Shown one piece after another: positions 1,736 to 53,831 of a DNA stretch of 64,000 bases (its first letter is position 1; each line of letters starts with the position of its first letter). The notes under the pieces were generated by a model. The model searched no databases and was not told where the DNA came from. It was given only the letters and a program-made list of their open reading frames with translations. The position numbers and the translations under genes are program-made. This stretch comes from Ischnura elegans. Its lineage: Eukaryota; Arthropoda; Insecta; Odonata; Coenagrionidae. The DNA is taken from contig NC_060251.1 in assembly GCF_921293095.1 (NCBI RefSeq), positions 61,645,585 through 61,709,584 of the forward strand. The letters run 5' to 3'.

Positions 1736-1840
1736 TAATAATATGGCAATCTCTATCGTAACAGGCTCAACTTTGTGGAGGTTCATTCTAATAAATAAAA
1801 GCGAACAAACTATGTATAAATCCACCAATTTATTTTTGTG

Positions 1841-1882
1841 GTACTACTAGTTTCGACGCAGCGGCGTCATCATCAGGTACAA
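1841..1882 (-). ncRNA. Hammerhead-ribozyme-like motif, left arm
   Basis: It is the mirror copy of the motif in the right arm, read on the minus strand (core at 1876-1870), with the same helix II, self-complementary ACTAGT and extra U. Transcription outward through either arm would therefore yield the same motif. Confidence 0.5.
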
Positions 1883-2435
1883 AGGCTATAAAGAAACAAA
1901 CATCCTTATATATCATGTGGTATCGGGAGGAAGAAGGTAGGTGGAAGGGGTGGCTGGGAAATCTGAGGTGTGTGATTGGGCGTTGTGGGAGGGTGGTGAG
2001 AGTTGGAGAGGGGTGGTGTGTGGAAGACCGTTGGTCGGGAGTAACGGAAGGTTTTTGGTGACTAAGGTAATGACGGGGGTGTCCGTGGGAGTGGGGGAAG
2101 GGGAAGGATTATGGGTTGTTGGTTTTTCCGTGAGGTTCAGGGAGGCTATTAACCTTTCCCCCCTCCTAATAGCCTCCCTGAACCTCACGGAAAAACCAAC
2201 AACCCATAATCCTTCCCCTTCCCCCACTCCCACGGACACCCCCGTCATTACCTTAGTCACCAAAAACCTTCCGTTACTCCCGACCAACGGTCTTCCACAC
2301 ACCACCCCTCTCCAACTCTCACCACCCTCCCACAACGCCCAATCACACACCTCAGATTTCCCAGCCACCCCTTCCACCTACCTTCTTCCTCCCGATACCA
2401 CATGATATATAAGGATGTTTGTTTCTTTATAGCCT

Positions 2436-2478
2436 TTGTACCTGATGATGACGCCGCTGCGTCGAAACTAGTAGTACC
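2436..2478 (+). ncRNA. Hammerhead-ribozyme-like motif, right arm
   Basis: The core CTGATGA (2442-2448) and GAAAC (2464-2468) flank a 5-bp helix II, GACGC/GCGTC, with loop CGCT. Helix I can form from GTAC (2438-2441) with GTAC (2474-2477). The candidate cleavage triplet is GTA at 2471-2473. Helix III in one molecule would be only AC/GT with a 2-nt loop, but ACTAGT (2467-2472) is self-complementary, so a dimer could form a 6-bp helix III, as for minimal hammerheads of Penelope-like elements. One extra U between A9 and helix II departs from the consensus. Activity is untested. Confidence 0.5.
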
Positions 2479-3089
2479 ACAAAAATAAATTGGTGGATTT
2501 ATACATAGTTTGTTCGCTTTTATTTATTAATAATATGGCCCTTGTAAACAAACTTTTAGTCCTAATTAAACACAAAAATCTCAACGTATTGGCTAGAAAC
2601 TAAACAGATTTTTCCCAACTGAGCGGCTGCTCCTAATATCTGGTGGAACAAATAATTGGAATTTGCTATTCACATACTGTTCGGGGTCATACTAGGTCGG
2701 GTTACGCCGTCGATGGATACAAATTCACTAAATCGCCATTATAAACCAATACTTTTCTAATATGATATGGAAAAGCGTTACGTCGATGGATGTCATACGT
2801 ACCTGTACGGTCGTACGTATGACATTCATCGAGGTTAAAAGGAAAACGAGGGTACCGAAAATGGAGTTTTCAGTCCTTATGTTTTTAAGTAGAAAATTTT
2901 CTCAGCTATTAGAGCCGACCGTGGCCTCTATTTCATTTAGCTTATGCGACTAGACTTGCATTATAGAATTTATAGACCATCTTAAAAATTAGTCCTGTGA
3001 CGATATTAAGTATTGTTTTTATCATGATTGTGAAGAAGAATCGAATTTTACATCAGTTTTTTGTCAAAACGACCTATATCTTATAGGAA

Positions 3090-3743
3090 TAGGGTAGTTT
3101 CCTTCATCAAAGAAACCGAAAGGCATTGATTGCGATTTGTTACCCACCATTACTGTATTCATAATATACAAATTATTTCGTTTTAGAAATACCGGTTTAG
3201 ACGAATGGCAATGGTCCATTTTTATCCTCATTTGAAAAGGGCCAGATTGGCGCCCATGCGATGCCACTCCACGTGACGTCACAGGGACCTAGTTTCTAAA
3301 CGAGAGGATAGGAGTTATACATCGTCTGAGGTTACCAATGCATGCATGAGGCACAGAGCTCAGGGAAACATCTCATAATAATCACACATTAAAACTGGCT
3401 AAGGTCGGAAAGTTTTCTTCGTTTGATAAGGTATTAATTAACCTTTTTTAAGCCAAGCGCTACCATCCAGCAAGGTACTCAGCTACCCGCTGGCATCCTG
3501 CGTCCTATCAGCGCTCAGAGCCTCGATCAAGGTCACCTCACAAGGCGGGAGGGGGAACCAGAAATACGTCACACGGAGAGATTTCCTTACCCGTCGCGTT
3601 TTCGCGCGCTTGAAATTTTTCACTTTTCATTTAATCGTGAAAAATAGATATCGTCATTTAAAAATCTAAAAGCGTGAAATACGTACTCCAGGAGTAATAA
3701 TCTTCCGATATAGGCAATAAAAAAATAATAGGAAACCACCCTA
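3090..3743 (+). mobile_element. Non-autonomous TIR element, 655-670 bp family, copy A
   Basis: The ends are AATAGGGTAGTTTCC and GGAAACCACCCTATT. It has two nearly identical relatives at 17246-17915 and 30059-30721. The interior holds GTGACGTCAC at about 3274-3283, a CRE-like palindrome. No coding capacity was seen. Confidence 0.7.
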
Positions 3744-6204: not shown

Positions 6205-6540
6205 TCCATGTATAAGACCTTGCTATTTATTGGTCTGTACCTCGTAAATAACTACGGAGTGTGTGAAACTCAGATTGGTATATTAAATTTCCGTTTATAA
6301 TACCTTGATATTTGTTAGTGTGTGCCTTTAAAATGCCTACAGAGTGGGTGAAACTCAGATTAGATTATTCAATTACTGTGTTTAAGACCTTGCTATTTGT
6401 TAGCTTGTACCTACCTTGAAAATAATTGCACAGTAGTTGAAACTTATATTGGTATATAAAAATTTCCGTGTATGAGACCTTGCCTTTACTTCATTGAAAA
6501 TTTCTACGGAGTGGGTGAAATTTGGGCTGGAATATTAAGT
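6205..6540 (+). repeat. Degenerate tandem repeat, about four units of 75-95 bp
   Basis: Recurrent blocks are AAGACCTTGCTATTT, a T-rich middle with GTACCT, CTACGGAGTGGGTGAAA and a tail ending AAATTTCCGT. The units differ by substitutions and small gaps. Confidence 0.6.
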
Positions 6541-11800: not shown

Positions 11801-14800
11801 GATATATGCTCTGCCACTCCTCAAAATACTCGGAATTATCGGATTATGTGAAGAATCCACGAATAGTACCATAGAACAGTCATAATTTATGCCGATATAA
11901 TCATTATTTGAAGCTTAAAATAAATAAATGGATACATATATATTTATATCTATATGATTTATTTACATACAGTGATATGCATTCATTTCCTGAAGATGTA
12001 AAATCCATGCTTCTGCTCCTTCGATCGATGTGACAATTAAATGCATTTATCCCATACAGCTTATCAGTGGAATGTCATCACCTTGTGGTGAAAAGGGTAG
12101 TTATCAATGATTTAGCGTCAATAAATAGTGTCTGTTCCCGCGCGGGCATAATGGCATCGCCTTTATAATCTATATCCGCGTGAGATGATGAGATGTATCG
12201 AGGAAAATGTGGAATTTATGAATTCATTCAACGTTTAATGACAATGTTATGGTAGTAGTATCTTTCACTTTCATTGCCCATAAATCACTGCTAATGGCTA
12301 ATCTCTGTCAATAATGCGGCATTTTATTATGGATTTTATCGGCTCTTGATCAGATAATCTCACTCACTTCGATTGGCCCTTAAGCTGGGATTTACAGTAT
12401 TAGGTCGAACAGTATGGAATATGTGCGTAGCAAGGTTTCCGGGTTGACCTCCGCGTCGATTCATCTTCAAGACGACAGTTTCGCCGGCGTTGCAGCTAGC
12501 GTGTTCAGGTACGAAGTATTTTATAGAAGGAATTTAAGAAGAAACCTGCATCCGTTACTTCGTACCTGAACACGCTAGCTGCAACGCCGGCGAAACTGTC
12601 GTCTTGAAGATGAATCGACGCGGAGGTCAACCCGGAAACCTTGCTACGCATGCTGCACCACCCCGCGAGTCTCCATCAACAGTATGGAATATGAACTAAA
12701 CTATGTTTTCCTAAAAAAAAATATATTCCTCTACGTGATTGGGGACACTTATCCTACTATTTTCCTATATGTACCTATCTACCTATATGTAGCTAACCAA
12801 ATTTTATCAAATAGGCAATGTGATGAGTATTACGTAAATGTGCAAAAGCTAATCATAAGAAATTTCAATTTCGGAGCTGAAGTACCTGTCATTTTGGTTC
12901 GTCAATTCATATTCTTTTTTTTGGTGAATTGCTGCTTTTCATTTCTTTTTTCCTCTTTTGTAATGTTTTTTTAAGCCTTTCATGCAATTATATCGTAGAA
13001 TAATCTGTTTTCGCCAACTCTTGACACATATTCAAGTTTATTTCACATTAACGGGAAAATTAAGATCCTAAAGTATGGTTTTAATAATACATTTGGAGGT
13101 ACTGGAAAAGTTGGAAATATCATCGAATGGAAATTGCGAAACAGTTTTAAATCCTTCAATGCGAAATTTTTTCATTTTGTGTTTACTGCATTATTGTGCA
13201 CTAGTTCTGTGCCATTTTTGATTTTATCAAAACCTGAATAGACTAAATTTTACAAGTGGCTCTAGTTTAGAGAAAACTCCTGCATTTTTATGCATGTCGA
13301 GTTAATTAAGCAATATTGCGTATCTTCCAATTCTATCCAATTTCGTATCCGAATAGCAAGATTTCTTTGGTCTTTCTTCCAAGCCGAGAACCTGTCATCG
13401 AGAGGGTTCTTCGGATCACTCTCTTGATTTTCTTTACTCAATCGTTTTTTAACGTTTACTGTTATACTAGTTTCTCACACAAGGCTAACCAATGAGTGGC
13501 CATCTGATTTCTTCGCCTATAAGAGCTAGTATCCTGTTTTTTTCATGCCCATCCAACAGCTTGTAGTCAAAATGCTTTTAATGTCTAAACGTCACTTTTG
13601 TCGATATCGTGAATTCATTGAAGGTATATGAAGGAAAAATTTCTTGATTTCACACTTAAATCTAAACTATATTCATTAGTGTTAATTTTACCGAGCTTCT
13701 TTCGCTGAGAGTCGGTAATATGCGCTTAGTTTTTTTTATTATACTACTATTCTGCAATTAATACCTCTTTAGCGTCTAATTCCAGTCCACATTTCTTCCT
13801 GGGAGGGAATTCAATAGAATAGTTGATAGAAAAATATTCTGAGTTTTATTTTCTATCCGATTTTGATTGTGCGACCTATTTGTTGTTTGAGGAATTGTCT
13901 CTGGTATCTCCTGAGCCGCCAGGAAGTCTATTTTGAAAGGAAAATAAACTTATCGCTCCTGATAAAGTAAGAGATTTTCCAAAAGTTTTCTTCCGTCATT
14001 TTATATACTACCTGTTTTCTAGTTTTCACATTTAGGGAGTAGGATATCCCCATAATAATCGTGATACATCTAATGTATAGAAATATACATTATGAGCTTA
14101 TATTAATCAATTTTCAATACGAATACTTACGAAACCGATGAGGCTATAAAAATATTGAGAGCCTTCAATAAAGTCGCAATATGACTCATATTGCTATTTG
14201 CTCACATTGTATTCCTTAAAATTTCACCAAGAATTAATATGCCACTACTCCTATTAGACATGCATTAGGATTCTAATATATTTTCAGTTATAATTGGAAT
14301 AAATAATGACTTTGGAATGCTCATAGCTGACCAAACTCAAATAAATATTTAAAAACTATTACTTATCAGTACATTAGAACACCTATACTTACTGTTAATA
14401 TCGTTCATTTCAAAAGTTCGTGGTAGTATACCATTCCAGCTGTACGTTTTGAAGTGTAAAAATGTTTATACAAATAAGGAAGCTGCGTAAGAGAGGAATA
14501 GGACACGTATCGTAGATACAATGGAGAGTCTGTGGAACTGAGGAAAGAAATACGATGCGGAAATATGGAGAGGCGGTGTTGATTATTTAACTCTTATTTA
14601 TGAAGTTAATTATGAAGTAATAATAGATATTATGTAGCGATTTTTGCTGATAGCCTTCCACATATTTTTGAAGGAAGACTATGTGGATTGGCAACTACTC
14701 TTAACCCTAGTTCACTTCTTCACCGAAACCTAATTTGACTGAACTTGGGGCAATTTAGTATTTGGAAACGTGGAGATTCTGCTGGTCCACGAATTAATAA

Positions 14801-26800: not shown

Positions 26801-29800
26801 CTGCTAAATAATGTTTTCATCCTTCTCAAAAACTCCTGCAGCGGACATTAGAAGTATACAAATATGAATAAAAATTTAATATTTTTCTCACAAAAACATA
26901 AACTTCAAACAGTATTTCCAGAGTTAAGGTACCCTCCATAAACAGTTCAACTTGATTTTTAAACTATATTCTCTGTTTTTGGGTGCTATGGTTTTTGAAT
27001 GGATGCTTGTGACTCGGGTTCACTACCTGTTGTTGTTTGCTATTAGTTACTCCATATTTGGGACTACCAAAGAGCAAAGTTAAAACAAATTAAAAATTGC
27101 TAAAGAAAGGAGAAAGAGTTTGCGTAGGTTGAATGCATAAGCCATTTGGAGGTCTTCAGTGAACTGAGGTAATATGTAACTGGCCTCAGAAGATATTTAG
27201 AGAGTAAACTAAAACATTTTATTAACTCTTGTAGTTTTCTGCTTCCTTTTCTATATCATATGCTCAGCATCACATTCTTTATCAAAATTCGTTGGTTAAG
27301 TTTTCTTCATTTAAAAATGTTTTTCCTGAAACTATTGATACTTTTGTAGATGAAGCGCTTTTATATTACATACATCTTTTGGCTCCTTATTGACTTTTTG
27401 CTTTTTTATTTCACACAGGCCTCCTTAGAAACATTCTTTGGCCTTGGATTAATTGTTGGTCCCACAGTTGGAGGAGCACTTTATGAAGTGAGTTCGTTTT
27501 ATATGATTTTTTACATGATATGTGACTTTGGCCGAAGCTTTCTTAATTGCTGGAAGAGGCTTTCAAGTATTTACAAAGCACCCTTACCTACTTGGGATAT
27601 GCTAATTATATGCTACATATTGCTCTTTTTGTCAATTTACAGTTTGCTTTCTAAAATTAAAATTTAGAATAATGTGAATGTGATAAAGTTATTCTATTGA
27701 CCTTCTGGGATTGTTATTTACGGAACTGATGCGAGAATACATAGGCGGTGATTGCTAGCTGAGTTTGAAAGTTGGTCATGTATGGGACATGTAGCTCAGC
27801 CACCGGTGAATTATGGCTGATATTTTGCATACATGCACTGTTGTGGAAGCTATTTACAATTGTATCTCTTAGTTGGATCACAAATTGGAGTAACGGCCAA
27901 CTCATTGTGCACAGTCTGCCACCATTATATCATATGCTTCTGGGCAGAATAAAAAGTGGTGGGCATGAGTGGATGGATATCCATCCACTGCTGGCAGCCA
28001 TTTGTAGCTGTGACTAAAGGCTGACAATGGCTTCTTAAGGATGCTACTTGTGACTCCCAATAGTGACCTAATGTGCAGTTAGTGGAATCATGGCAACTTT
28101 ATAACCTTGAACACCACTTGTGGTATTCCATGCATCTACAGTACGATATTGTTAATCTGGAATTCTAAACTATGGAATATTTTATCCCAGTGAGAAATGG
28201 GTGGTGGAATCCACGTGGGTTCCACGTGGATATTAGGTGGAAATGTAACGTGGATACCACGTGTTTTTGGTCGTGGAATCAACGTGGAACCCACGTGGAA
28301 ATTTGGTGGAAAAATTAAAACAGCAGTAGGTGCTGTCCTAAAACCATTAAAACCTCAACCACTCTATATCTAAACCTTCTATATATGTGTCTACGATTTT
28401 TCATGTGCTCTCATGGCTGCCTTTCCACGAATTATATAAAAATAGAATGTGCGATACATTTTCACATAACTAGCGTGGTTTCAGGATGATAAATGAGGCA
28501 ATGTCACCAGAGAGTTAAGTTCCACAAATTAGAATTTCTGTTTAACATTTTATGCTAATCACCACAAATCCACTTGAAATCAACGTGGATTCCACGTGGG
28601 TCCAACCACTCAATATCCACCACCACCATATATCCACGAGTCAACATGGATTCCACGTGGATTCCACCACCCATTTCTCACTGGGATTTAACTCAAGATT
28701 TTCTAGAATTTTGCCAACTAATGTTTTCCATTGACTAGGCATAATAATGGCCACATGAGCCATTAAAAAGCCTCCTGTTCACACATTTTGGCCTCCAAGT
28801 TCATCCATAAGAAAGGGATCTCAATACTCCAAAAATATTAATTCTGGAAAATCCCTTGACCTGTGTGTTCTTGGTTATCAATCTTCTACTGCATTTGAAA
28901 CACTCAACTGGTGTCTACATCTTCAGGACATTTTCAAGAGTACAATTTGAAACTTTATTTGAAGGGAACTACTTCCATAGGAATAAATCCAGTGGAGGGA
29001 ATTGATATAAAGGAAGACAATTGGTGAGCAGTTGGTGATAGGGAGGATAAAGTCCCCCACACACCTATCTGTGTGGCCACGGTGGCAGAAAATCGAGACA
29101 AAAATGACACAAAATAACTGTTGCATAGAAGCAAAGGATAAGGCTTATGAAAAAAATGATGCCGTCACCAAAGCTATGTACCTGAAATGGAGCTCGATGT
29201 TGCACTTGAAGTCGGACGCGTCCTGTCGAATGGTTGGGTTGGGTCGCTGACTCCGCGGGCAAATGCAGAGCGGGATGGGACCAAGGCTGTTAGGCTACCT
29301 TGGTGTATGTGCACCCCCTTGAATATATGTGCAACAAATGACCGCAGTCTCGCCTGCCAGGGGCGCAGCCAGGAATTAAGGCCGGGGGGGGGGGGGGGGG
29401 TTTAGGTGCAACTAATACTGGGGTGTTTGGGGGTGTGGAATACCCACCAGGATAAGCGGTAGGTGCGAGATCAATAAATTGTGGAATTTTAAGATAAATG
29501 GTTCAAAATGGTGAGTTTTACGGCTTTCTTAGGGATGTTTTATTAATCCTTACACTATTCTATTAGTAATTTCAATTCAATTAAGTAAAATGGATTAAAC
29601 TTAAGAATTTCTCTGAGCTTTGGGGGGGATTTTAATCCCCAAATCCCCCCCCCCCTCACTGCGCCGCTGTCCCCTGCCACCACAGCCTCACACATGTTTG
29701 GGAGCCTTAAAGTTGAAGAAAATGGTATGGTAAGGAAAAAAAAAGGGGTGGTGCTAGGACTAAAGGTCTGAAGGTGGGGGTGGGACACAAAGAATGAAGG

Positions 29801-32800
29801 GGACGAGGTGGATCATGGCGTAAGGTATATACCAGGTACATATTATAGAATATGAAGTCATGGATCTCAAATTACCTCCTCAGTTCCACCTTCAAGCAAA
29901 TCTAATTGATCTGAACCAATGATGAAGAAGCAGCTCTGCTTGTAGATCTGGTAAAGAACTGCACATAGGAATGACTCAGCTTGAGGCAGGAATTACTGAA
30001 GAATATCTTCAAATTTACCATTCTCCCTTCCCTTATTTTGTTCAACCTCACTCTCCAATAGGGTAGTTTCCTTCATCAAAGAAAACAAAAGGCATTGATT
30101 GCGGTTCGTTACCCACCATTAGTGTACTCATAATATACAAATTATTTGGTTTTAGAAATACCGGTTAAGACGAATGGCAATGGTCGATTTTATCCTCATT
30201 TGAAAAAGGCATGATTGGCACCCATGGAATTCCACTCTACGTGACGTCACAGGGACCTAGTTTCTATACGAGTAGATAGGAGTTTTATATCGTCTGAGGT
30301 TACCAATGCATGCATGAGGCACAGAGCTCAGGGAAACATGTCTTAATAATCACCTATTAAAACTGGCTAAGGTCGGAAAGTTTTCTTTGTTTGATAAGGT
30401 AATAATAATCCTTATTTAAGCCAAGCGCTACCAGCTAGCAGGGTACTCTGCTACCTGCTACCATTCTCTGTCGTATAAGTGCTCAAAGCCTCGCCCCAAG
30501 GTCACCTTACCAGCGGCAGCGGGAACCAGAATGACGTCACACGGAGTTTTCCCAGCATTCATACTTAGCCGTCGCACTTTCGCACGCTTGAAAATTTTCA
30601 CTTTTCATTTAATCGCGAAAAATAGATATCGTCATTTAAAAATCTAGTAGCGTGAAAAACGTACTCCAGGAGTAATAATCTTTCGATTTAGGCAATAAAA
30701 AAATAATAGGAAACCACCCTATTTACTCTCTGCTCACCAACCATTTTAATTTATCTCAACCCATTACCTTGTTTAGCTCCTATAATAGCAGTTCTTTTCA
30801 CCCAAAATTTTACATTGCGATCTTGAAAATGGCTGAAGAAGCTGAAAAGTTGGTGTGTCTGAAATAAAGTTGTAGATTACAATGATGTGCTTTGATTGCC
30901 TTAATGGCACTCATCAGCTTGGCAGCATCAGCGATAGAAACCTATTTTTGAACCCGGACCAATGTAGGATTTATGTAGTGAAGTGAGCAGAAGCACTCTA
31001 CTTTGTGAGCCAGTGATTTTAGGTAATGTTGGTTGCAAGGAGGGCTCAAATGAGACTCAATATAAATACCTACTTTTACCTGGAATCTGATTTAGAACTA
31101 ATCTAACCTCAGGGGCAGATTAAGGCTGAGGGGGTGGTTATAGGGGTCATGAACCCCCCAAATTTTATATTTTTTTACATTTTTATTGGTTTAATAGTTT
31201 TTGTACCCTTGTAAATGATAAAAATGAGTGTACATGCAAATGTGTGGCTATAAGTTCCAAACATGAGAAAAGTTTGAGTTTTATTTATTTTAGAGCGTAC
31301 CCAGTGAGAAATGGGTGGTGGAATCCACGTGGAACCCACGTGGAATCCACGTTGATTTCAAGTGGATTTGTGGTGATTATCATAAAATGTTAAACAGAAT
31401 TTCTAATTTGTGGAACTTAACTCTCTGGTGACATTGCGTCATTTATCATCCTGAAACCACGCTAGTTATGTGAAAATGTATCGCACATTCTATTTTTATA
31501 TAATTCGTGGAAAGGCAGCCATGAGAGCACATGAAAAATCGTAGACACATATATAGAAGGTTTAGATATAGAGTGGTTGAGGTTTTAATGGTTTAAGGAC
31601 AGCACCAACTGCTGTTTTAATTTTTCCACCAAATTTCCACGTGGGTTCCACGTTGATTCCACGACCAAAAACACGTGGTATCCACGTTAATTGTCCACGT
31701 GGGTTCCACGTGGATTCCACCACCCATTTCTCACTGGGGGTAGAACTCTCCACTGTAAAAATCCCCTCTCTCCCAGGACCCAGCTCTGTCTGTCTGTTGG
31801 CATTCAGACTTCATTCCTCAGAATGTTATTTTTACCAGATTTCAAGATATTGCTTTTTTATTTTATGATTGTAAATAAGTTTTTCTCATTTCTAGGTTGG
31901 AGGTTACACTACTCCTTTTGCTGTTCTGGGGTCAGCACTCTTTTCCTCGGCTGTGATGACTGCTTTTGTTCTTCCAGAGCATTCTGATGCAGAGGTGAAT
32001 GAAAAGCACTCAGGTATGTAAAAGCTTACTTTTCCATTGGTATTGCCAATACAAAAGGTAGGTCGTTGTGCGTCTAGTGGTGACATCATTTGAGTGTATC
32101 CACTATTTTGTATCAACATGTGCACATCAATACTGGGGCGTAGCTAGGAATTAAGGCTGGAGGGGGGGGTTAGGTGCAACTAATACCGGGGTGTGTTGAG
32201 GTATGGAATACCCACCAGGATAAGCAGTAGGTGCGAGATTAATAAATTGCGAAATTTTAAAGATAATTGGTTCAAAATGGTGAGTTTTGCGGCTTTCTGA
32301 GGGATATTTTATTCATCCTTACAGTATTCTATTAGTAATATCAATCCAATCAAGTAAAATGGAATAAACTTAAAAATTTCTCTGAGCTCTGGGGGGATGT
32401 TTATCCCCCAAAACCCCCCCCTTGCTGCGCCACTGCATCAATAGCTTGGTAGCTAAACGGGTTGGATAAGGATGGTAGTTAACCTCGCTTCAATGAAATA
32501 AATAGAGTTAAATTGGATCACATCTATTCCATGGTGAGTGCTGTCGCTGTTTGTGAATCTCTATGGTGCCTTCCTGGTCCTAGGCTTTTGGTGCCCTGGC
32601 AGTCTTGCCAGGGACCATCTAAGGACTTAGGGCAGCGATCTCAACCAGGTGGTGGTCCCTAGCGGTGACGCTTCGAATTAAAAGCTCTGCTGAAAGGATT
32701 TGCTTCCACCTGAGACGACTGGCAGTTCATTGAGACTCGAATAAGACTGTGTTGCACACCATTGAATAAACATGGTTTGACTTATCAATTTATTTCATTG

Positions 32801-35800
32801 AAGCAAGGTTAATTATTCCCCTTATCCAACCCCTTAAAGTGGTGACCCCATGTGGCGGTGGTTCAAACTAGAAGCTCCGTCACAGTAGCCAAGGAATGTT
32901 GTTTAATTTTATAAGAAAAAAGAGAGTTTATATATGGGTGCTTTCCAATCGCGTATCTGCGCAGATCTGTTTTAAACTGTTCAGCTCAGAGCCTGTTCCA
33001 ACTGTAGGTGTGACGTCATCTGCGCTAAACAGATGGGAACACATCCTGCACCATTGTTCGTCTGCACTAGTGTTTCAATCTGTTGTGATGTGAGCTAATC
33101 TGCGCAAGGTGATTGGAAAGCATCCTATATTTCCTTTGCTTCAATCTGCTTATCACTGGAACTGATGAAGAAATCAAAGTTTTTCTACATTACTTTACAT
33201 TCAGAAGTCATATTGAATAGAATGTGTTTTGTAGCAAATGACAGTATTTGTATTAAAAAAATGTTAATGCCGTGTTAGTCTTGACTCAATGCAGAGTAAA
33301 AGATTGCAGAAATGAAATTTTCCATACACAGCATCTTATTGCTACTTCTGGAAATTGCTAAGTAAATTACATGATATGGAAGAATGATACGTTTAATGAT
33401 AATCAATTAATATCCACTCATGATTAGGTAAACATCAAATCTCAACAATCAACGCAAAAAGATAAATTTCTGCTTCTTATGTATTTGGCTTCAATAATGC
33501 ACAATATCACAGTGGATAAGTCTATTTTGGCTGTTAATTAGGATTTCTACAGGAAAGTTAGGATAAATTCACTTCAGTCCATCAAATTTATATCATATAG
33601 CCATAACCCAGTGAGAAATGGGTGGTGGAATCCACGTGGAACCCACGTGGAGAATTAACGTGGATACCACGTGTTTTTGGTCGTGGAATCAACGTGGAAC
33701 CCACGTGGAAATTTGGTGGAAAAATTAAAACAGCAGTTGGTACTGTCCTAAAACCATTAAAACCTCAACCACTCTATATGTAAACCTTCTATATATGTGT
33801 CTACGATTTTTCATGTGCTCTCATGGCTGCCTTTCCACGAATTATATAAAAATAGAATGTGCGACACATTTTCACATAACTAGCGTGGTTTCAGGATGAT
33901 AAATGACGCAATGTCACCAGAGAGTTAAGTTCCACAAATTAGAAATTCTGTTTAACATTTTATGATAATCACCACAAATCCACTTGAAATCAACGTGGAT
34001 TCCACGTGGGTCCAACCACTCAATATCCACCACCACCAAATATCCACCACTCAACGTGGATTCCACGTGGGTTCCACGTGGATTCCACCACCCATTTCTC
34101 ACTGGGAAGGGTGGGAAGTGCCCTAACACCATTCTGACAATATTGGAAACTAATTTATCTGAGCTTTCCTCCGCAACTTAAATACTAACACTCAAGGTGC
34201 GTTTGCATCTTTGCTTCTTTATTTACATGTTTTTACTTTGAGCAGGAATTGCACTCCAGTAATGTCACTTGCAGAAAAAATCTCATGTTGTTCACAAGAA
34301 AGACCTACCTTGTATCAGTAGTGTCATAACTTTTTCCATCACCGAGCATGCCCCTTTTTCTGTCACTGGAAACTTATTTCATCCTATTAGATTCCAAATT
34401 TGCTAATACATTCATCAAAGAGTTCTGTTACGGTTTCTGTAGGGCTTGAATCAAAGAAATCTCCACTTTTTGGGTTTTCCACCATGTTGTTTCATTTTCC
34501 TGGACAATATTTCGCGTTGCATTCCTGCAAACTTCTTCAGGTCCCCTACCTGGGTAAAGCTAATTCATATGGGTTGGTCTGCATGTTGTTTATTGGTGTT
34601 GGGCTCATGTATTCCTATTGATTGCTTTGGTGTTTTCATGGAGTACAGTCTTCCAAATTGTGGACAGTGGGTAGCCATGGTCCCAGTTGAAGTTGTTCCA
34701 TCATTGAGTTACTGTGACATTGTCTTTGACTTGATGGCTATTGGCTATGGAGTTGATGGAATAATGACTAATCTATCAATGCATTGAAAAATGACTGATC
34801 CAAACATGATAACTAAAACAGTCATCTTCTCAGTTTCTGAAATGCTAATCTGATTTGTCAGAGGGAAGAAAAGGTTATTCTGTGATTCATAAATCAATTA
34901 AAGTAAGGCCTGAAGGCTTCACTGTAAGTCCTTGAAATGCAGTTGTCTGAGAATATTTTTACCTCTTGAGAATAAATCATGAAAAAGGGTTGAATTTACG
35001 ATTTGAATAATAATCTTAAGATACTAATCCTTTGCATTTTCAATAGGAAGTTTGTTCAAAGCTCTAAAAATACCTGGTGTGGCTCTAGCTGCTTGCAGTA
35101 TTGTTGCAACTTCAGTGAGTATAGGATTCTTGTCAGCCACTTTGGAACCACATCTCAGACAGGTAAATGAAGTTTCAATTTTGCATATCTTATGTTTAAT
35201 CTTCCTTAATATACACATGGCACAAAGTTGGAACATAATTATAATAATAAAATTGTTCTCAAAGTATTGAGGAGGAAAGTGCATTTGTATGATTAATGGA
35301 AGTACAGGAAACAGCTTCTAATCATTAACTAAGTTACCTACCTACTAGTTACCTACTAGTAAATAACATCTCAAACAAAACCAGAAAACATGAAGAATAA
35401 ATTAAAGTGCAATCTTTCTGAGCATACCTAACAACATAAATTAAATATAATAATTCCCAGGAATAATGATCTCTTAAATGGACCACCGTCAACATCAGGT
35501 TTAAATAAGCTGAACCATTACAATTGAAATTAGATGCTATACTAACTTGTTCTAGCTTCTCTTTAATTGGACAGGGTGTTAGCCAGAATTCTGTGAGCTA
35601 TCAAAAAAATGATAAAGCTATCTGAAAATCTGGATTTTTAAAAGTATTTTGCATGATAATAGCAATAGATTGAAGCAAGTAATTAAAGAGAGATTCTTTT
35701 TTAACAATTCCAATATTAAGGGTAAAATCAAATCATTAGTGAGCATAAATATAATGAAAATCATTTTGATAAATATGGAACATTTTTCTTTCAGTTTGAA

Positions 35801-38800
35801 CTTTCTCCTGTCGTCTTAGGACTTATGTTTGTTGTGAATGGAGGAACATATGCAATAACTGCTCCTTGCTTTGGTTGGATCTGTGACAGAACTTCTCTCA
35901 ATCCAAAAGCCATTACTATCCTTGGATGCTTCTTAGTGGGAACTGGATTTGCTCTCATTGGACCAGCACCTTTCATTCCTGGTCCTACGTAAGTAAAAAT
36001 AATCATATTTTTCATCAATACATTTTTACCATTACATCCCGTATGTTTTCAGGATTCTATGCAATGCACACCTTTAAATCCAAGTGATAATGTGCTTTCA
36101 TAACTATTTTGACCACTGTCTACATCAAATACAAGTTTGCATGTGGTGTGGCAGAGCCAGTAAGGAGAAATTTAAAGTGAGATTTTTGACCTAAATATAC
36201 TGATTTATTAATTTAGAATGGAGTATGAATTGAAAATTCCTTCTCTAGTGACTTCATTCTTAGCTTATGGCTGGATTTAGGTGTAATCAAAGTACCCAGC
36301 CATTTCTTAATAAGAAAAATGAAGTTCTTATACACCATCTCATTAAAAGTGAGCTCTAGCACATACCCAGTGAGAAATGGGTGGTGGAATCCACGTGGAG
36401 AATTAACATGGATACCACGTGTTTTTGGTCGTGGAATCAACGTGGAACCCACGTGGAAATTTGGTGGAAAAATTAAAACAGCAGTTGGTGCTGTCCTTAA
36501 ACCATTAAAACCTCAACCACTCTATATCTAAACCTTCTATATATGTGTCTACGATTTTTCATGTGCTCTCATGGCTGCCTTTCCACGAATTATATAAAAA
36601 TAGAATGTGCGATACATTTTCACATAACTAGCGTGGTTTCAGGATGATAAATGACGCAATGTCACACCAGAGAGTTAAGTTCCACAAATTAGAAATTCTG
36701 TTTAACATTTTATGATAATCACCACAAATCCACTTGAAATCAACGTGGATTCCACGTGGGTCCAACCACTCAATATCCACCACCACCAAATATCCACCAC
36801 TCAACGTGGATTCCACGTGGGTTCCACGTGTATTCCACCACCCATTTCTCACTGGGTATGTACTTAAAAATGATCGTACAGCAATAACGTTATGACCAAA
36901 TACATGTACTCCTGAAGTCATATTTTAATGCTTGCAGTGAGGGATTTGAGCTGTAGGTATGGTGAAGAATTGAGAATGTGAGATGGAACGTTTGGGAAGG
37001 TGAAAGTAGTGTGAGATTGTGGTTGAGGAGAGGAAAATCTTACAGAAAATAAGATGTACATATAGATAGGTGGAACTGGTACTGAAGAGCAAACGACACT
37101 GCAGATTGTTATAAAAGGAAGGATACTTGGAATATTTTGAAGAATCCAGTTGGATCATCCATGTTGACCTGAAATAGCACTCAAGGCAATGAATTTAAAA
37201 GATGGGAAAAAAATTATACGTTAGTATGAGTGATCAAAAATGTAAGCCTAAATTCATTGACCTTATTATAATGCAGGTGCTATGCAGTTATAATAATACT
37301 GCATTACTCAGAGACAGATACTCTAAATTTTGTGAATTAACCTCTGATAAAACAAGCATTGATATACTTCTCGCAAGTGTGGTAGCTTGGTGTATAGAGG
37401 ACTTGGCTGTTGATGGAAGGGTTCAGGATACCAATCCCCAATGAAGCCTTCAGACTCCCCCTAAAAATATCCTCAAAGTGCATAATGAAAGGAGCTATAC
37501 CACTCACCCTGAATATATGAAATGCGCAAACTACTATGGCTTCGTCTGGTAAGAGCTCTCCCCTCATTCAACCATATCAAACTTTAGGTTGAACCTGATA
37601 AAGTTAGATTGCTCTTTTACATGAAAAGAAGTCAAGGTCAACACATAGAGGCCCCACCATGCCTGACCAGTGGCATAGCAAGGGGGGCTTTGGGGATTAA
37701 CCCCCCCCCCCCCTGAGCTCAAGGAATTTTTAAGTTAAAATATCTTTATGTGACAAATTTTGTGTAGCTTATTTTAGGAGGATGCATGACTAAAAAACAA
37801 AACATTAAACTATTCACACAGCCATAAAACTCTCTATTTTGAACCATTTATCTTATCTGGAGGAGGGACCCCGCACCTCCTGCTTACCCTATCGAGCATT
37901 TCATACCCCTCGTACGCCCTAGTATTAGTCGTGCCTAAGAAACCCCCCAGCCTTAATTCCTAGCTGCACCCCTATGCCTGACATCTGGATTTAAATGAAA
38001 TTGGCCTTCGAATGATTTTAATTAAATGTCAAATGACCAAATGCTTCGTCACTCATAGGACCCCCTAACTTGCCCTGGGCCTGGGGTTCTCAGCCATTAC
38101 TGATTAGACAACAGACCGCCGGGCCGGTTTTCGACATTTTACATTTTTTTGGTGTAAGCATGCAACATTCCTCGCCCCCTAAAAATAACGTAAGAGGTAA
38201 TAAGGATTCTCTCTGTATTAATTTTAAAATAAATACAGATACTTGAGGAAAAAGGGTCGATACTTAAATACCAACCTGAACTTACAACGTGCTTTCTCTT
38301 ATGTATTGAAGATAATATTTTGGACTGAGCGCTTAGGCGCCCAGCTGCGCTTGGCACCCTACACTTCCACGTTCTTTGCTTGCCGCTAAAACTGCCCATT
38401 AGGCCGTCCCTTATTTTTCAGAATTGAGAAAAGTTATGTTTTCCTAGTCTCAAAATGATCCAAATGAGGTTCATATTCACGTGTTAAAATTTGGTTACTT
38501 TAAAATAACGGCAACCCGTGCCCCAAGGGCCCTAAGTACTGAGGACCCTCAATTGAGATTTTTGGGGCCGAAAAAGAGCCATTTCTATGTAAAACGTGAT
38601 ACTAAAGCCCTCCAGGGCCGATGTTCTGTTCAAAGACTACATCTTGCCAGCAGGAGTAGTCTAGCAGACTAAGTCTTTGCCGAGGGAGGGGAGGGGGTGG
38701 AGGGGAAGTCTCTAGTAGGTGGTGCGGGCCGTACCTCAACGGCGCCGCGGTGCGGGGTAGCGCCCTGGGAGGTGGAATGCATTACGACGGATGATATCTC

Positions 38801-41800
38801 GTAAACGCTTAGAGATAGGTCAAAACAAATAGAAAATCGGCCCTGAAGAACCTTAGTTTCACGTTTTACATAGAAATGACTCCTTTTCGGCCCCAAAAAT
38901 CTCAAGTGAGGGTCCTCAGTACTTAGGGCCCTTGGGGCACGGGTTGCCGTTATTTTAAAGTAACCAAATTTTAACATGTGAATATGAACCTCATTTGGAT
39001 CATTTTGAGACTAGGAAAACATAACTTTTCTCAATTCTGAAAAATAAGGGCCGGCCTACTGCCCATGTTGTTCTTAAGGCCGTTTTATAAAGGGGCACGT
39101 CGTTGTGCAGGCTAGCACAGAAAGTATTTTTTGGAGCTGCGAGAATGCGAGCGCGGAATTAAAGCAGGGGCTATTTTGCCGTCTCGCATCCATGCATTCT
39201 CGCATGTGTTCTGGCAATTCCCCGCTGTACACGGCACAGTTTTGACTGCGCATACATACGGCGCACATACTTTAGATTGCGAATGATAAATGCCCATTTT
39301 TAGATGATCCACACTTATACATCTACTGATAAGGGACTGAATTACATGAATCACCAGAAACGCCATTTTTCATTTAAGTTGATATAAATAATGTATATTT
39401 AAACGGAGTGTTATATAAAGTTAGCACACATTATTTAAGTTTTGCTTTCACAATTTCATTATGAAATTAAAAAGAATGAGTACTTACCCATCCTCGGGAA
39501 TTTCATTTCCTAGGTATCCTTAAAATGCCAAACCAGCTTCTCTATATGACAGGTATATTTTCTCTACGGAATTTACATAGGCAGCTAATCGGAGATTCAT
39601 TCCTAGGTTATAATCTTCCGCAGTGTTGAGGATAGCCTGACTAGAGCGTTCCATGGTCTGACTAAGTCCTGAATGAACAATATCCTTTTCGGATGCCCCA
39701 GCTATTCGTTTCTTGAATTCCTCAGATGGGATTATGGGAATTTTCCCCTTCACAATGTGGCTGAAGTGTTTTTCTATTGAATCTTGAACGGATTGCAGTA
39801 GAAAGTAGTTGGAGTCCCGCTCATATTTGAAAAGAAGCCGCCCAAATGATACATGGTTCAAATTCTTCAACCACTCAAAAAAGGACACCGTAACACCTCC
39901 AGCATTAACGAACAAGTCGGGAATAATCAAAATATTGCGCTCAAGAAGGATTTTATCAGCGGCAGGGGTTGTGGGACCATTGGCCCCTTCTATAATCATT
40001 TTTGCTTTAATTTTTGGAGCATTTTCTAATGTAATAACTTTTTCACACGCTGCAGGAATCAAGATATCACAGGCTTCACAGAGTAAGTCGTCTCCCGATC
40101 TTTCCTCAGTCCCGGGAAAACCCATTATTGTGTCTTTCTCTACGTAATAATCATGTAATTTCAGTATGTCTATTCCATGTGCGTTGAATATTCCTCCGTC
40201 TTTCTCTACTACACCAATGCATACACCCCCAGCTCGGCTAAAGTATCTTGCTGTGTGAAATCCCACGTTGCCGAAACCTTGGACAATGAACGATTTCGAC
40301 TTTATACCTGTTTCTAATCCTATTTTAGACATGACTTTCTCGTTATTGAGTATGTTTTGTGCTCCATGAAATATACCACGTCCAGTAGCTGCAGTTCTAC
40401 CATGGATGCCTCCTTGGTTTATTGGTTTTCCAGTGACACAGGCGTTAGCATTTATATCATTGTGGCCAATCGTTTTTGAATAAGTATCGGCGACCCAAGA
40501 CATTTCCCGCTGGCCTGTGCCCATATCGGGAGCGAGAACATCGATTCCAGGTCCAATAAATCCTTTTTTGGCGAGCTCCAATGTAAATCGTCGGGTAATC
40601 CTCTCTAATTCAGTCTCACTGTATTCTTTCGGATTAATCCTCACTCCAGCTTTTCCTCCTCCGAATGGAACAGCGACGACTGCACACTTGAAAGTCATCA
40701 GTGCCGCCAAAGCTTTCACCTCGTCTACATCGCAGCCAAGTGAGTACCGCATTCCACCTTTACATGGTGTTTTATGCGAACTATGTTGTGCACGGAAGCC
40801 AGTAATCATTTCATACGCGCCAGTATCTCTTCTTAAGGGGAAAATTGTCTCAAATACGTGATGGCAAGGCTCGATTATTTTCAGAATGCCTCGAACTTTC
40901 TGCTTTCTCTGTTCGTCTGTTGTCTTAGGAGCCTTGAGATCTTCAATCAGTTTTTCTTCCAATATTTCACAGGCGGAGTGGAAGAAGTACTCCACCATTT
41001 CGAAGAACTTAGGATTTGCTGCCTCGGGTATATCTTTCAGTCGGTCCGGAATTTTGTATTCAGATAGGGACCGATGGATTTGTTTGTCTGGAGCAAATAT
41101 TCTTGAAATACCTCTTCTCATTCCTCCGCCGATGAATTTTTTAAAAACGGTCATCTCTTAGCCTAATAAACTATCCGCTCAAAAACTTTGTCAGGAGATC
41201 GACAAGTTCTGAGATACTCAAAATAAACGCGAAATATAACCGTATCTGGATATCATTGGCTTATTCAACGTAAAAGCTGGTTTGAGCCACAAATTATTTC
41301 ACTTATTTTCAACTAATTGGCTCACCAGTGTAAACAATGAAGATCCATTTTGGTTGTATCAAACAGTATCAAGCACATCAGAGAACTAAACGCTACCAAG
41401 CTACCGTAACTATACAAGTGACGAGAAATCAATAAACATACCCCACATTGCCTATTTATTCCTCTTCCACTAAGAGTAAACAAAAAAACTGTAAACTGAC
41501 GTATACTGGAAAAACTCTATAATGTTCGAAGTATTGAAAATGATTGTCCATACTAATGCGTAGTGACTGCATGTACCCAAACTGTAGGTGGATATAATTA
41601 TATTTTAAAAGTCGTCAAATTCATGCATAATTTTCGTGAAGATAGTTACCACAGGAGAATGCAATAAAACATTTACAAGGGAGCGATAAGAAAATAAAAT
41701 GTGGTGCAAGAAAATTCTTCATATCCACTTCACCCTCATATGGAATAAATTTCAAAATGATTCAACCTTACCTACGAAATAAAAAGTAGATACGCGTATG

Positions 41801-49012: not shown

Positions 49013-50115
49013 TTGTAGTTGTATTTGTTGGCAGAATATGCTCAAGAGCAATGGCTGTGTTCAGTTTAGTCGATGTTTCCGGAAAGGAAATGGCGTCTGT
49101 TTCATAAAACTAACTTGTCGTTCTTTGACAAGTGGAGATTTTCCAGATTCTGAAGACTAGCGAGACATAATAGATTTCTCGCCTGTCTAAAGTTGTTGTC
49201 TGCGTAATAAGAAGGTAATAATGAGTGCCTAGTCTTAAATGTGTGTCACTATGCTATGAATGTCACTGATCATTCTAGGTAGTTAAAATAATCATGTTTC
49301 AATTCAGTGACACGTCAGCTACTTGAAATAGTTCATACCAGTTCATTGGCCATTTTTATGTTAACTTCATGGAATTTAGCACCAAATCATTATTATAAAA
49401 TCACGCCAATTACATGATTTTTAATATTTTATAACATAAGCGACGTCAATAGTGACGTCAAACACTAAATTATTCAACTTTTTGGTACCAAATAGACCTG
49501 CTTCGTTGGCAGGAATAGCCCGGCAAAATATCCATCCCAGTATACTAATCCGCAGAATAATGGAGAAAGGTGAAGGCATGGATATCCAATATAAATAGTA
49601 TTTGTGCATATTTGATTTAAAGTTGTACATAAGTATCGTTTTAACCTTAATTTTAACTTTAAGTTTAATGGTTGGAAACATCGAGTGCAAGAAGTGTTCA
49701 TTTGCGAATGCGTTGTGTACAATATTGGAAATAGTTGATGGCGCGAATTTTTAAAGCAGTACGCTTAATTGGTCGTGTCATCCATGAAAATGTGCCAATT
49801 TTTTTATCGAAGTCCTCATTAATGATATATGTGTGGCAAGATGCCAAATGTCTGTATGAGTTGAAATTGTGAATGCATGTAATAACAATCTTATCATAAG
49901 AATTATTCAGCAGAAAAATATTATGATTTGATCACGTTGCGTCAAGAAATAGGTTTATAAATTTGAAAACTTTGATAGTTCATAATGACTGCATTTTCAT
50001 GCGTTCAGTTTGATTACATATCAGGATGCTTTATAAGCATTCACCTGATAAAATGTTGCTGTAAATATTTTTTAGCCTCTGAAATAAAAAGACAATAAAC
50101 TTTACAATTCATTAG
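49013..50115 (+). other. 3' UTR of the transporter gene
   Basis: There is no reading frame here. Two AATAAA hexamers at 50083-50088 and 50094-50099 are followed by sequence that reads as ordinary intergenic DNA, so cleavage near 50110-50120 is likely. The UTR would be about 1.1 kb. No mobile element was recognised in it. Confidence 0.5.
50083..50099 (+). terminator. Paired poly(A) signals of the transporter gene
   Basis: Two AATAAA hexamers lie 11 nt apart about 1.07 kb after the stop codon. They are the first closely paired signals in the correct position. Confidence 0.45.
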
Positions 50116-50305
50116 TTCTTCATCTGTTAAGCATGTGTGTGTGAAATGAATGTACTGAACTAACTTGGTAATTTTAGTTCCCCAACGGGGCCGCCCACGT
50201 GAAAAAAATTGTTTCCAATGACACTCGTACTAGTCGGCGAGATTATGTGCATTTTACACCGTTCTTAATGCCTCGCCCGAAAAAGATGTAACTGGACTAG
50301 ATATG

Positions 50306-50519
50306 AAGAAAGATCGCTCTTCCCCGGCGTATTGTATCGTATAAGGTTACTCGGGATTTCCACCGGGTCACGTTCTCCATCACAGATGTCGTTTCGATAA
50401 ACGAGCCGTCTATCGACATGCCCTGACGACGATGGGCGACTCATTCATCGAAATCAATCAATCAGCACGTCGGCCGTGATGGAGAACCTGACCCGGTGGA
50501 AATCCCAAGTAACCTTCCA
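50306..50519. mobile_element. Palindromic insertion with a 13-bp target duplication
   Basis: Arms of 41 bp (50343-50383, 50476-50516) have two mismatches around a 92-nt spacer that folds further. A 37-nt tail lies only on the left (50306-50342). The flanks TGGACTAGATATG (50293-50305) and TGGACTAGAGATG (50520-50532) differ at one base. Confidence 0.65.
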
Positions 50520-50532
50520 TGGACTAGAGATG

Positions 50533-51675
50533 CGCTGAGGATTCATTGAGTCAGAGTCTCAAGTATACTTGGAATCAGGGACGCATATCAGTCTCAAGTA
50601 TACTTGGAATCAGGGTACGGTAGGGCGGATCGAAAAAATCGATTTTTATCACATCCATCTGGCCCAATGAAAAAGAGTTGTGGGACCGATCAAAAATAAG
50701 GCCTGAAAAATTTGATACCTCTAGGTGAACCCCTCGCTCAAATGCGATTTAGGGGGGGAGGGTCAAAATTCTAAAAATTTAATATTTTATGGTCATTCCC
50801 TATAGATTTTGCCGAAAACCGATTTGATAGTACCCAGAGGAGAACCTTAGAACTTGTAATTCATGGTCATGTTGACCTCTCAATGGGAAAATATAAAAAA
50901 AAACGTAAGAGGAAACACGATTCGTCGGGCCCATGGCCTGACAGGACGGCCACGGTCGGGCCCAAAACCTGTGATCGGTGAAGTTGCGAGGAAAGGCAGT
51001 ATAGGAACTGGAAGTCGTCGAATCAACCTTCGCCTCGCACACAGCGCCCACAAAGATACACAAACATGGCAGAGAGAATGGGGATTTTATCGGAAGGCTA
51101 GAGAATAAGCAGCGAGTGGGAAATGGGTGCCAGGTGGCGCCAAGCGCACTCACAGGGTTCGGTAATGAGAAATGGTGCAAAGGACGCGTCGGACGCAACC
51201 GTAAATAACACTACGGACTTCGAGAGCATGAGATGCACCTATGTACTAACTTTGGTCACAATCCATGCAGCCCTATGGGGACGCATAGCGGATAGACAAA
51301 CAGACATCCTATTTAATATGTATAATAATAGAAATAGATAAAAGATTGGGGGAGGAGGCGTCCACCACAGGATCGATGCCAGTGCGAATCATTAATTGCG
51401 CCAATAACTTTCCAGATTTTGATTCATACATTCATTTTTCGTTTTACGATCTTAAGATTGGTGTACTGACGCCCTCTATTCCTACCTTATTCTGAGATAA
51501 AAATTGATGGCTGCGAATGCATAAGAATCTATTGACGTTTACAGCAATATCCCTGAAATATGAATATTTACTTATTTTTAAGATCCCAAATTAACATTTT
51601 AAAAATCTAGAGGAGTAATTTGATCTTTTAGTGAAAAGGTGGGTAAAGAAACAAAAATATAGGATATAATAAGCA
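50533..51675. other. Intergenic, unassigned
   Basis: A word of about 25 nt (GTCTCAAGTATACTTGG with flanks) is repeated at 50556 and 50603. The 50860-51250 stretch is GC-rich with overlapping open frames on both strands that match nothing I know; it may be an unrecognised repeat. Confidence 0.3.
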
Positions 51676-51683
51676 ATTTAATA

Positions 51684-51978
51684 CAGTGGCGCAGCGAGGG
51701 GGGGGTTTTGGGGGATAAACCCCCCCCCCCCCAACCCCAGAGCTCACAGAAATTTTTAAGTTAAATCTATTTTACTTGATTGGATTAATATTGCTTATAG
51801 AATAGTATGAGGATTAATAAAATATTCCTAAGAAGGCCGTAAAAATCACCATTTTGAACCATTTATCTTTTTTTTTCCACACCTCACGCTTACCCTGGCG
51901 GGTATGCATTACCCCCAAGCCCCTCAGTATTAGTTGCGGCTGAAACCCCCCTAGCCTTAATTCCTAGCCGCGCCCCTG
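51684..51978 (-). mobile_element. hAT-like MITE, family 2 copy 5 (inverted)
   Basis: It starts CAGTGGCGCAGCGAGG and ends CTAGCCGCGCCCCTG. The exact target duplication is ATTTAATA (51676-51683, 51979-51986). Confidence 0.88.
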
Positions 51979-52764
51979 ATTTAATATGCACGGGTGGTAT
52001 TGTGGACGAGTTTCCATGCGGATAAGTGAATTATTGCCGGCGAAAAAGAGGTGTACAGTGAGTACCTACAAATAACTAAATAATTTGAATATGGCATGCT
52101 TTTAGAACCTTTATTGATTTACGAGTAAAGATATTATTTGAATCGGAATAAGAGATGGTTAAAAAGGAAAGGACTCTAGGTTTTTTATATTTATTAATAC
52201 GTACCTGTTGAAAGTGGACTGAAAGAGCCGCGGTTGATTTGAAAACGAAGTCTCACAGTTTTAAGGGGTTGGAGATGTTTATCTGGATGCTCATCAAGAG
52301 CTCGTCATAATGAAGCAAAGGTAGGAATGACTTTTTCGGGAGCGCTTAACTATAGTCTCCCTTTTATTTATCTCGCTGGTAAATTATGGGAGTTTGCTTG
52401 AATACACGTGACCCTCAATGCACGCCCTGTCTCATCTTTCGCGGCAGAAGCGATGAAGAAAACACGTCGAATAAACACGTCTTAATGACTGCAAGTAAAT
52501 GAGAACTTACTTGTAATAGTAGATGGTTCAAATCAGAGAAGACTTTAATTTAGCATACTTTAGTTAATATATGTTAATTGAAAAGGCTCTAAGGAAGTCA
52601 CCAGTGATTTCAATCTCACGGTTAAAATGGGTCGAGATTTTAAGCTCGACAGACAACAGATGGCTTTTAGAAGTATAGTATACTCAAGTGGTACTAATTA
52701 GCAGCTTTTATTTGCTATAATAATGGAACAACAAACTAAAAATAAATCTTATACACCTAGTGTA

Positions 52765-52888
52765 CGAAAGATCCACAGAGAAAAAATCATTCGAATGATT
52801 TTTTCTCTGTGGATCTTTCGCACGATTGTGCATTGCGGGTGATTCCCGTAAAAGTTATCACCGCGGCTAGTCCCGGTATACTTTAAAC
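52765..52888. mobile_element. Small palindromic insertion with a 12-bp target duplication
   Basis: It has a perfect 56-bp palindrome without spacer (52765-52820, arms CGAAAGATCCACAGAG onward) and a 68-nt tail on the right only (52821-52888), which itself has a GGTGAT/ATCACC hairpin. The flanking repeat ACACCTAGTGTA is exact (52753-52764, 52889-52900). Confidence 0.7.
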
Positions 52889-53831
52889 ACACCTAGTGTA
52901 TGCTAAAAATTATTTATACGTAGATTTTAACACATTATTTGTTGATTCTGAGAAATATTCAATTTTAAAGATAGCTCTCCATACGTAGTTATAGCACAAA
53001 AATGGCTGGAATAATTTTATTTATACGTTTTAATGCTGGTTCACTACTTCATCACATGCTCCTCTCGTGCCTGGTGTGAGAATAGACGAGCACATACTTT
53101 GAAGTAGGCTCGGCGTTGGGCGCCGAGGGAAAGGAGAGAAATATTACAATGCCTCAAAGATTTAAAAAATTGTATTTGATTAGAATTAAGACTGAAATTG
53201 CCAAATGTTATTTTGTGTTAATATTATCGCTGAGATATTATATGATTCCGACAAAAAAGATCAGTGGCATTTTGAATAATCCCACTCAAAGGTAAATTAG
53301 TATTTCGATTGTTAATTGTAATTTGTCTCTCATGGGAGTGTCATGTATTTAAATAGAAGCTTGGATACAGTATGGTGTAGTGTTTAACCAATAGTTGATG
53401 ATTGTAGTGTAGCACTGAATAGTGTGAAAATATGGACACTTGGGGAAGAGGATGAGAAAATATTGGGGGCATTTGGGATGTTAGAGTAGAGAAGAATTGG
53501 GAAAGTGAAGTAGACTGAGAGGAATAGGATTGGCGAATAACTGACTATTGTGGGCAAGGAAATTAAACCTAGAGGAGAGAGTATGTTAATAGGATGGAAT
53601 TAGTGTTGAGTGGCAAAGTGATGTTAAATCCATATTCGAACCCCTTGCAGCAATCAATATCCCACAACATCTAGACAACTTTATTGGCTTAAATAAATGA
53701 CATCGTGTAATATTCATGTTAATCCAATTAACGTCATATGGATATTTGTCAAATATCCAAAGGACCTGCCAGACAACGTTGCAGCAATGTCCAACAGTGG
53801 ACTTAAAGGTCAGTATTACAACAACTCTTAG

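Follow-up and report, generated by a model that had tools for sequence, protein, structure and literature searches.

What might explain why four palindromes in one stretch of the Ischnura elegans (Odonata) genome are built alike, each with a pair of inverted arms, a tail on the outer side of just one of them and a target-site duplication (TSD)? The stretch, called the window below, comprises 64,000 nt of contig NC_060251.1. Recomputing the exact repeats placed all four palindromes (P1 to P4) where a sequence-only reading had located their arms, tails and duplications, and a genome search for copies showed each to be a member of a multicopy family of the 1.72-Gb genome (families 1 to 4, in the order of P1 to P4). 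They raise the question of how Penelope-like elements (PLEs) come by an inverted repeat and a tail on one side. We consider it probable, at roughly 0.6, that Penelope-type machinery made P1 to P4, as short insertions truncated at the 5' end, through dual-ended (twin-primed) target-primed reverse transcription. After a staggered cut, two 3' ends about 12 nt apart would each prime reverse transcription on RNA of one source. One end would start at site A, the end of the pseudo-long terminal repeat (pLTR), giving no tail, and the other at site B, 27-68 nt downstream of A, giving the tail. Both cDNAs would extend to the RNA 5' side, stop early and join head to head, and fill-in of the overhangs would produce the TSD. 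P4, a tRNA-headed unit, would insert in this way too, presumably in trans. Three parts of the scheme are inferred: that a single event on one RNA extends both strands, that the enzyme started at A usually leads, and the manner of cDNA joining.

Arm reach, target sites and the route of insertion

The relative reach of the two arms separates fold-back from twin priming by sequence alone, and can be applied to any genome. Site A was placed where the tail-less arm ends on the outside, and the inward reach of each arm was measured from it. The sequence-only reading had proposed that a tail-primed cDNA snaps back and copies itself, ending before the tail; the tail-less arm must then be nested in the tail arm. 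This expectation failed in most copies: among 64, the tail-less arm was the longer in 40, P1 included, the tail arm in 21, and 3 were equal (p=0.020). Differences of at least 8 nt gave 39:16 for tail-less against tail (p=0.0027), and those above 21 nt gave 26:10 (p=0.011). By family the same ratio was 12:6 in family 1, 17:12 with 1 equal in family 2, and 11:3 with 2 equal in family 4. Within the window, the tail-less arm is the longer in P1, where it reaches to -378 and the tail arm to -362, and in the more weakly aligned P3; the tail arm is the longer in P2, and P4 is equal.

These counts come from searches that gave 1469, 1255, 1594 and 353 first-look candidates for the four families, with 40 places scored per search, so that copy numbers are lower bounds. 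Inner arm ends were transcribed by hand, and a value is a minimum where the arm reached the end of the ruler. For family 1, the 18 two-armed places of the 40 scored were counted, leaving out about nine places with only a tail-less arm (by eye) and two with only a tail arm (C19:70936207, C15:7432933); locus L127, two-armed with the tail-less arm longer, stands outside the 64. Ten of the 40 scored family-2 places showed one arm only in their stretch and were uncounted. The 20 family-4 stretches are about half of the 40 scored places, and five of them (L073, L075, L076, L079, L080) were omitted because they have one arm, or three, or arms that continue into the adjoining unit. Family 3 was kept out because its arms are old, its reference stops at -90 and several copies have a common hinge. 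Taken alone and by eye, its 24 distinct one-tail copies have the tail-less arm longer in 20, the tail arm in 3 and neither in 1, omitting L019, L027 and L034 (copies of the L018 insertion) and the tail-less loci L021, L024 and L035.

The target duplications are real, as the earlier reading had it. In families 1, 2 and 4, a TSD scoring at least 9 flanks 59 of 62 copies (the misses being L117, L070 and L071) against 0 of 183 mismatched flank pairs used as shuffled controls, and 55 of the 62 score at least 11. With the ends anchored, 46 of 60 copies have an exact TSD of 9-15 bp, and 30 of those 46 measure 11 or 12 bp; the other 14 were not anchorable or gave no TSD. Since the anchor can trim shared end bases, 12-13 bp is a fair reading of the length, which is less variable than the 12-16 bp previously given. 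Family 3 has a TSD-like repeat in 12 of 30 loci, a count made with no control. The same TSD search found a flanking duplication at each of P1 to P4 and none at nine further inverted repeats, out of the 34 pairs reported for the window. When flanks were joined, 5 of 47 (L040, L049, L063, L064, L120) aligned across an uninterrupted relative at 71-80% identity, with no gap at the joint and one copy of the TSD; no uninterrupted relative matched the joined flanks of P1 to P4 in a comparison among the sampled loci. These paralogous empty sites bear out the target duplications, and the target-primed insertion that had been suggested is supported. A search for a cut-site motif gave only mild A/T richness.

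Both arms of a copy carry variants that most other copies lack. In a count that left out L117, 28 such variants of 30 family-2 copies are common to both arms, 30 are confined to the tail arm and 45 to the tail-less arm, with 0.34 shared variants expected; the corresponding figures for 17 family-1 copies are 11, 18 and 13, with 0.03 expected. Some shared variants (in L054, L107, L111, L112, L114 and L118) are absent from all other compared arms. Both arms thus come from one source, perhaps from one RNA molecule. In families 1 and 2 the scored two-armed copies (18 and 30) have one tail each. In vitro, the anole PLE machinery acts on both strands, cutting and extending each, and the tail lies between two start sites (PMC11167929). 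Two enzymes in line on one RNA would account both for the pairing of A with B and for the A arm being usually ahead. A tentative extension, which we regard as less probable than its negation, is a convoy of two reverse transcriptases (RTs) on one tandem RNA, the leader at A making the tail-less arm and the follower at B the tail, with a tRNA-promoter short interspersed element (SINE) having evolved to use it in trans. Such a convoy would yield one tail per two-armed copy and a tail-less arm that tends to be longer.

Several observations weigh against twin priming. The tail-less lead is significant in no single set (p values of 0.24, 0.24 and 0.057, and of 1 in the palindrome-picked set). That last set, 12 family-2 palindromes ranked high by likeness to P2, divides 5:6 with 1 equal and adds nothing to the lead, which comes from the other sets; yet nesting is broken in 5 of these 12 too. 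Three family-4 copies (L074, L085, L087) did not show the tail-less arm ending at A on its outer side, and without them the overall count is 37:21. The 21 copies with a longer tail arm fit snap-back and twin priming alike. Near-equal arms, differing by 21 nt or less, number 7 of 18 in family 1, where 1.38 are expected (P=1e-4), and are weakly over-represented in family 4 (9 of 16 against 5.47, P=0.03), with no excess in the two family-2 sets (8 of 12, 7.75 expected; 4 of 18, 2.22 expected). This excess looks like a hairpin hinge, which plain twin priming does not explain, and some fold-back may be involved. Of the 28 shared family-2 variants, 22 lie in four copies belonging to a single subfamily (L053, L054, L056, L057), and they show a common subfamily more than a common molecule. 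Six family-1 places (L126 to L131) were first seen with a tail-less arm only. Among them L128 and L129 are single-armed, with TSDs of 11 bp (in a simple-repeat stretch) and 12 bp, and L126 and L130 are single-armed with no TSD found; L131 enters a stretch of N, and L127, which counts in favour of twin priming, is a long form with an ORF-bearing (open reading frame) tail-less arm, a short inverted tail arm and a 13-bp TSD. Two family-2 loci, L065 and L066, show the tail arm alone, so that sites A and B each occur by themselves. The anole study saw no strand difference in start site (PMC11167929), which does not favour a fixed pairing of A with B.

There is also one true snap-back. Locus L075 of family 4 (C19:48337200-48337800) has three arms: a tail arm, its inverted copy including the tail, a 26-nt stretch and a tail-less arm, within an 11-12 bp TSD. 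The 26-nt stretch matches the inverse of the left target flank, although the first base may be part of the tail and the closing GGAT is equally compatible with the piece that follows. Here fold-back ran through the tail into target-side sequence, and the product then joined a second cDNA; fold-back can pass the tail.

A mixed route would accommodate this locus. Reverse transcription would be primed on RNA at both ends, one cDNA would often fold back, and its sense copy would anneal to the other cDNA. Besides L075, it accounts for the near-equal excess of family 1 and for overlaps of at most 8 nt at family-1 inner joins. It is inseparable from plain twin priming by these data, and only a single family shows the near-equal excess clearly; we think this route rather unlikely. 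Snap-back on its own is improbable. The small-hinge arms of family 1, the fold-back copy in L075 and the 21 copies with a longer tail arm speak for it, and it too predicts source variants common to both arms. It is nonetheless refuted as the sole mechanism wherever the tail-less arm is longer, unless an extra template switch is added, because in those 40 copies the tail-less arm holds sequence absent from the tail arm and self-copying cannot add it. Furthermore, the one visible fold-back passed the tail, and site A resembles an RT start site, like the two that bound the anole tail (PMC11167929). Self-priming of an antisense RNA, the proposal published for rotifer Penelope (PMC3846280), yields head-to-head inverted copies, and that arrangement is found here too; it is very improbable for these copies, since the longer, template arm should bear the tail and does not in 40 of 64. 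Cut-and-paste palindromic elements of foldback or MITE (miniature inverted-repeat transposable element) type share the inverted arms, TSDs and multiple copies, but can be practically dismissed, as they already had been, given variable inner junctions with fixed outer ends, the one-sided tail, truncated single-arm copies and an RT-GIY-YIG ORF that extends into the arms.

Coding content and ribozyme-like core of the four families

By their predicted proteins, which include an RT, families 1 and 2 belong to the PLEs. In family 1, locus L126 has an RT (PF00078, 4.2e-13) and a GIY-YIG match in one 564-aa frame. The latter (E 5.6e-4) scores 20.6 bits, below the curated cut-off of 22.6, and L007/L008 score 21.6 bits; the motif SGIYLLEC...YIGQTGRTF is visible in the frame. 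Read on the - strand, the P1 tail gives MNLHKVEPV..., the start of the PLE ORF, and the same tail-encoded residues lie near the starts of a 642-aa frame in L127 and a 915-aa frame in L128. In family 2, an upstream frame of L123 carries an RT (PF00078, 3.2e-8). A family-2 stretch, SGIYKVKC...SYIGQT, aligns to the GIY-YIG stretch of family 1, and there was no Pfam GIY-YIG match in L123, which is cut by the locus end, or in L124. Family 1 and family 2 share 30% identity across 235 columns of alignment. The view that several Penelope-like families insert here in a recurrent mode is supported. Beside the family-1 copy of L008, at 2016-3401, there is a Copia-like gag-pol frame, recognised by eye with no search.

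Family 3 consists of old copies, mostly 72-81% identical to P3, with PLE-type ends. All 30 loci read are palindromic copies, and no search was made for coding ones; 27 have one tail, and L021 and L024 (which overlap) and L035 have none. Four loci at C2:46.5-46.9 Mb (L018, L019, L027, L034) hold one family-3 insertion four times with the same flanks (by eye), apparently through regional duplication. After the family-2 copy of L068 comes another palindrome, family-3-like, with a one-sided tail and ACCTTAACAAT in both flanks, which looks like the same insertion mode.

Family 4 is a tandem-type, SINE-like unit with a tRNA head and the insertion anatomy of the other families. Of 9 loci scanned, 6 gave a tRNA-Ser(gga) call, L083 a tRNA-Gly and two no tRNA. 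No RT-GIY-YIG ORF was found: the longest stop-free frame of the 305-nt unit measures 72 aa, and across 20 loci of 401-601 bp it ranges over 55-121 aa, longer copies not having been sought. Family 4 is accordingly not classed as a PLE and appears only to work like one. In L073, L079 and L087 (in the last, the left arm) the arms extend beyond the tail end into another unit, which indicates a tandem or circular template. A tRNA-Ser(gga)-like sequence, like the family-4 head, also lies in the flank of a family-3 copy (L035, 2579-2653).

A hammerhead-like core was sought as CTGANGA, stem II, GAAAC and GTH, the minimal variant; such variants have been described for PLEs. The core occurs in 18 of 18 family-1, 38 of 40 family-2, 16 of 30 family-3 and 1 of 20 family-4 loci, the family-4 match being chance-like, and as a control the pattern with a stem of at least 4 matched 3 times in 145,886 bp of flanks. 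One extra base separates core and stem II in families 1-3 wherever the stem forms; the family-2 stem II has a run of only 3 pairs. Rfam gave no hammerhead match in the window, four loci or window 2400-2560. In the same scans the palindromes matched microRNA-family hairpins below gathering scores, matches elsewhere were weak and chance-like, and one tRNA, in the L035 flank, was above gathering. In P2 the G8 of the core has become C in both arms, a change present in 1 of 57 other arms. The same substitution is reported to abolish cleavage in the anole PLE, and cleavage is reportedly not needed for insertion in vitro (PMC11167929); the P2 change agrees with cleavage-free insertion if it predates the insertion.

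Anatomy of P1 to P4

The arms of P1 and P2 are 100% identical over 363 and 95 nt, and those of P4 together form a perfect 56-nt palindrome (52765-52820). The arms of P3 are imperfect, matching over 50 nt at 88%, with a longest exact match of 18 nt. The P2 TSD opens with AACA, the same 4 bp that close the family tail, and its real length may therefore be 12 bp. Elsewhere the window holds a short-repeat array around GTGGAATCCACGTGG in both orientations (28200-36850) and a 234-nt inverted repeat, 94% identical and without flanking duplication (38397-39061).

Table 1. Parts of the four palindromes, in window coordinates
Feature	Position	Strand	Remark
P1 TSD, left copy	1736..1747	none	TAATAATATGGC, 12 bp
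P1 tail, 41 nt	1748..1788	-	between RT start sites A and B
P1 tail arm, 363 nt	1789..2151	-	3' end of PLE ORF and pLTR with hammerhead-like core
P1 hammerhead-like core, left copy	1845..1876	-	pattern match; coordinates read from sequence
P1 spacer	2152..2166	+	extends the tail-less (right) arm, not the tail arm
P1 tail-less arm, 363 nt	2167..2529	+	exact repeat
P1 hammerhead-like core, right copy	2442..2473	+	pattern match; coordinates read from sequence
P1 TSD, right copy	2528..2539	none	overlaps arm end by 2
P2 TSD, left copy	12408..12423	none	AACAGTATGGAATATG, 16 bp
P2 tail-less arm, 95 nt	12424..12518	-	exact repeat
P2 spacer	12519..12555	none	partly filler without match to the family
P2 tail arm, 95 nt	12556..12650	+	pLTR and first PLE ORF codons (codons by eye)
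P2 hammerhead-like core	12566..12600	+	CTGAACA (family CTGAAGA)
P2 tail, 27 nt	12651..12677	+	comparison with family
P2 TSD, right copy	12678..12693	none	exact repeat
P3 TSD, left copy	50293..50305	none	13 bp
P3 tail, 37 nt	50306..50342	-	comparison with family
P3 diverged palindrome	50343..50519	left tail arm -, right tail-less arm +	
P3 TSD, right copy	50520..50532	none	13 bp, one mismatch
P4 TSD, left copy	52753..52764	none	12 bp
P4 tail-less arm	52765..52792	-	3' part of tRNA-headed SINE-like unit
P4 tail arm	52793..52820	+	comparison with family
P4 tail, 68 nt	52821..52888	+	comparison with family
P4 TSD, right copy	52889..52900	none	12 bp

Relation to known retroelements

In the 5' inversions of LINE-1 (a long interspersed element, LINE), known as twin priming, each of the two target ends primes a cDNA, and the two cDNAs become joined head to head. 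The insertions described here differ in that the start sites are fixed in the element and the arms overlap, producing a palindrome. There is also a close likeness to Penelope/Poseidon-type PLEs (rotifer Pen2a, anole PAc, fly Penelope), which have an RT and GIY-YIG ORF, a pLTR with a one-sided inverted pLTR and a hammerhead motif, an optional tail of about 30-40 bp running into the ORF start and a short TSD. For rotifer Penelope, the inverted pLTR, tail and TSD have already been described, with TSDs of 8-10 bp as against about 12 bp here, and self-priming has been proposed as the origin of the inverted arms (PMC3846280). Unlike those PLEs, most copies sampled here are palindromes that lack the ORF or are truncated, in part a consequence of querying with palindromes, and their hammerhead-like core has an extra base before stem II where the stem forms. 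The 2024 in vitro study of the anole element speaks of additional steps still to be validated (PMC11167929). Judged by titles and abstracts, with subscription papers mostly outside the search, we recognised no treatment of twin priming in PLEs or of a tRNA-headed SINE with PLE ends.

Family 4 is reminiscent of two kinds of small element. Metazoan non-LTR retrozymes are likewise small, tandem, non-autonomous units, and their mobilisation by PLEs has been suggested (PMC7761336, PMC7229834); in contrast, family 4 has a tRNA-Ser gene-like head and the ribozyme core only as the single chance-like match. With tRNA-derived SINEs it shares the tRNA head, the lack of a long ORF in the unit and a TSD, but its ends, tail and inverted arms are PLE-like and not like the 3' end of a LINE. 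A tRNA-headed SINE with PLE ends would, if the partner is confirmed, extend the partners of SINEs beyond LINEs.

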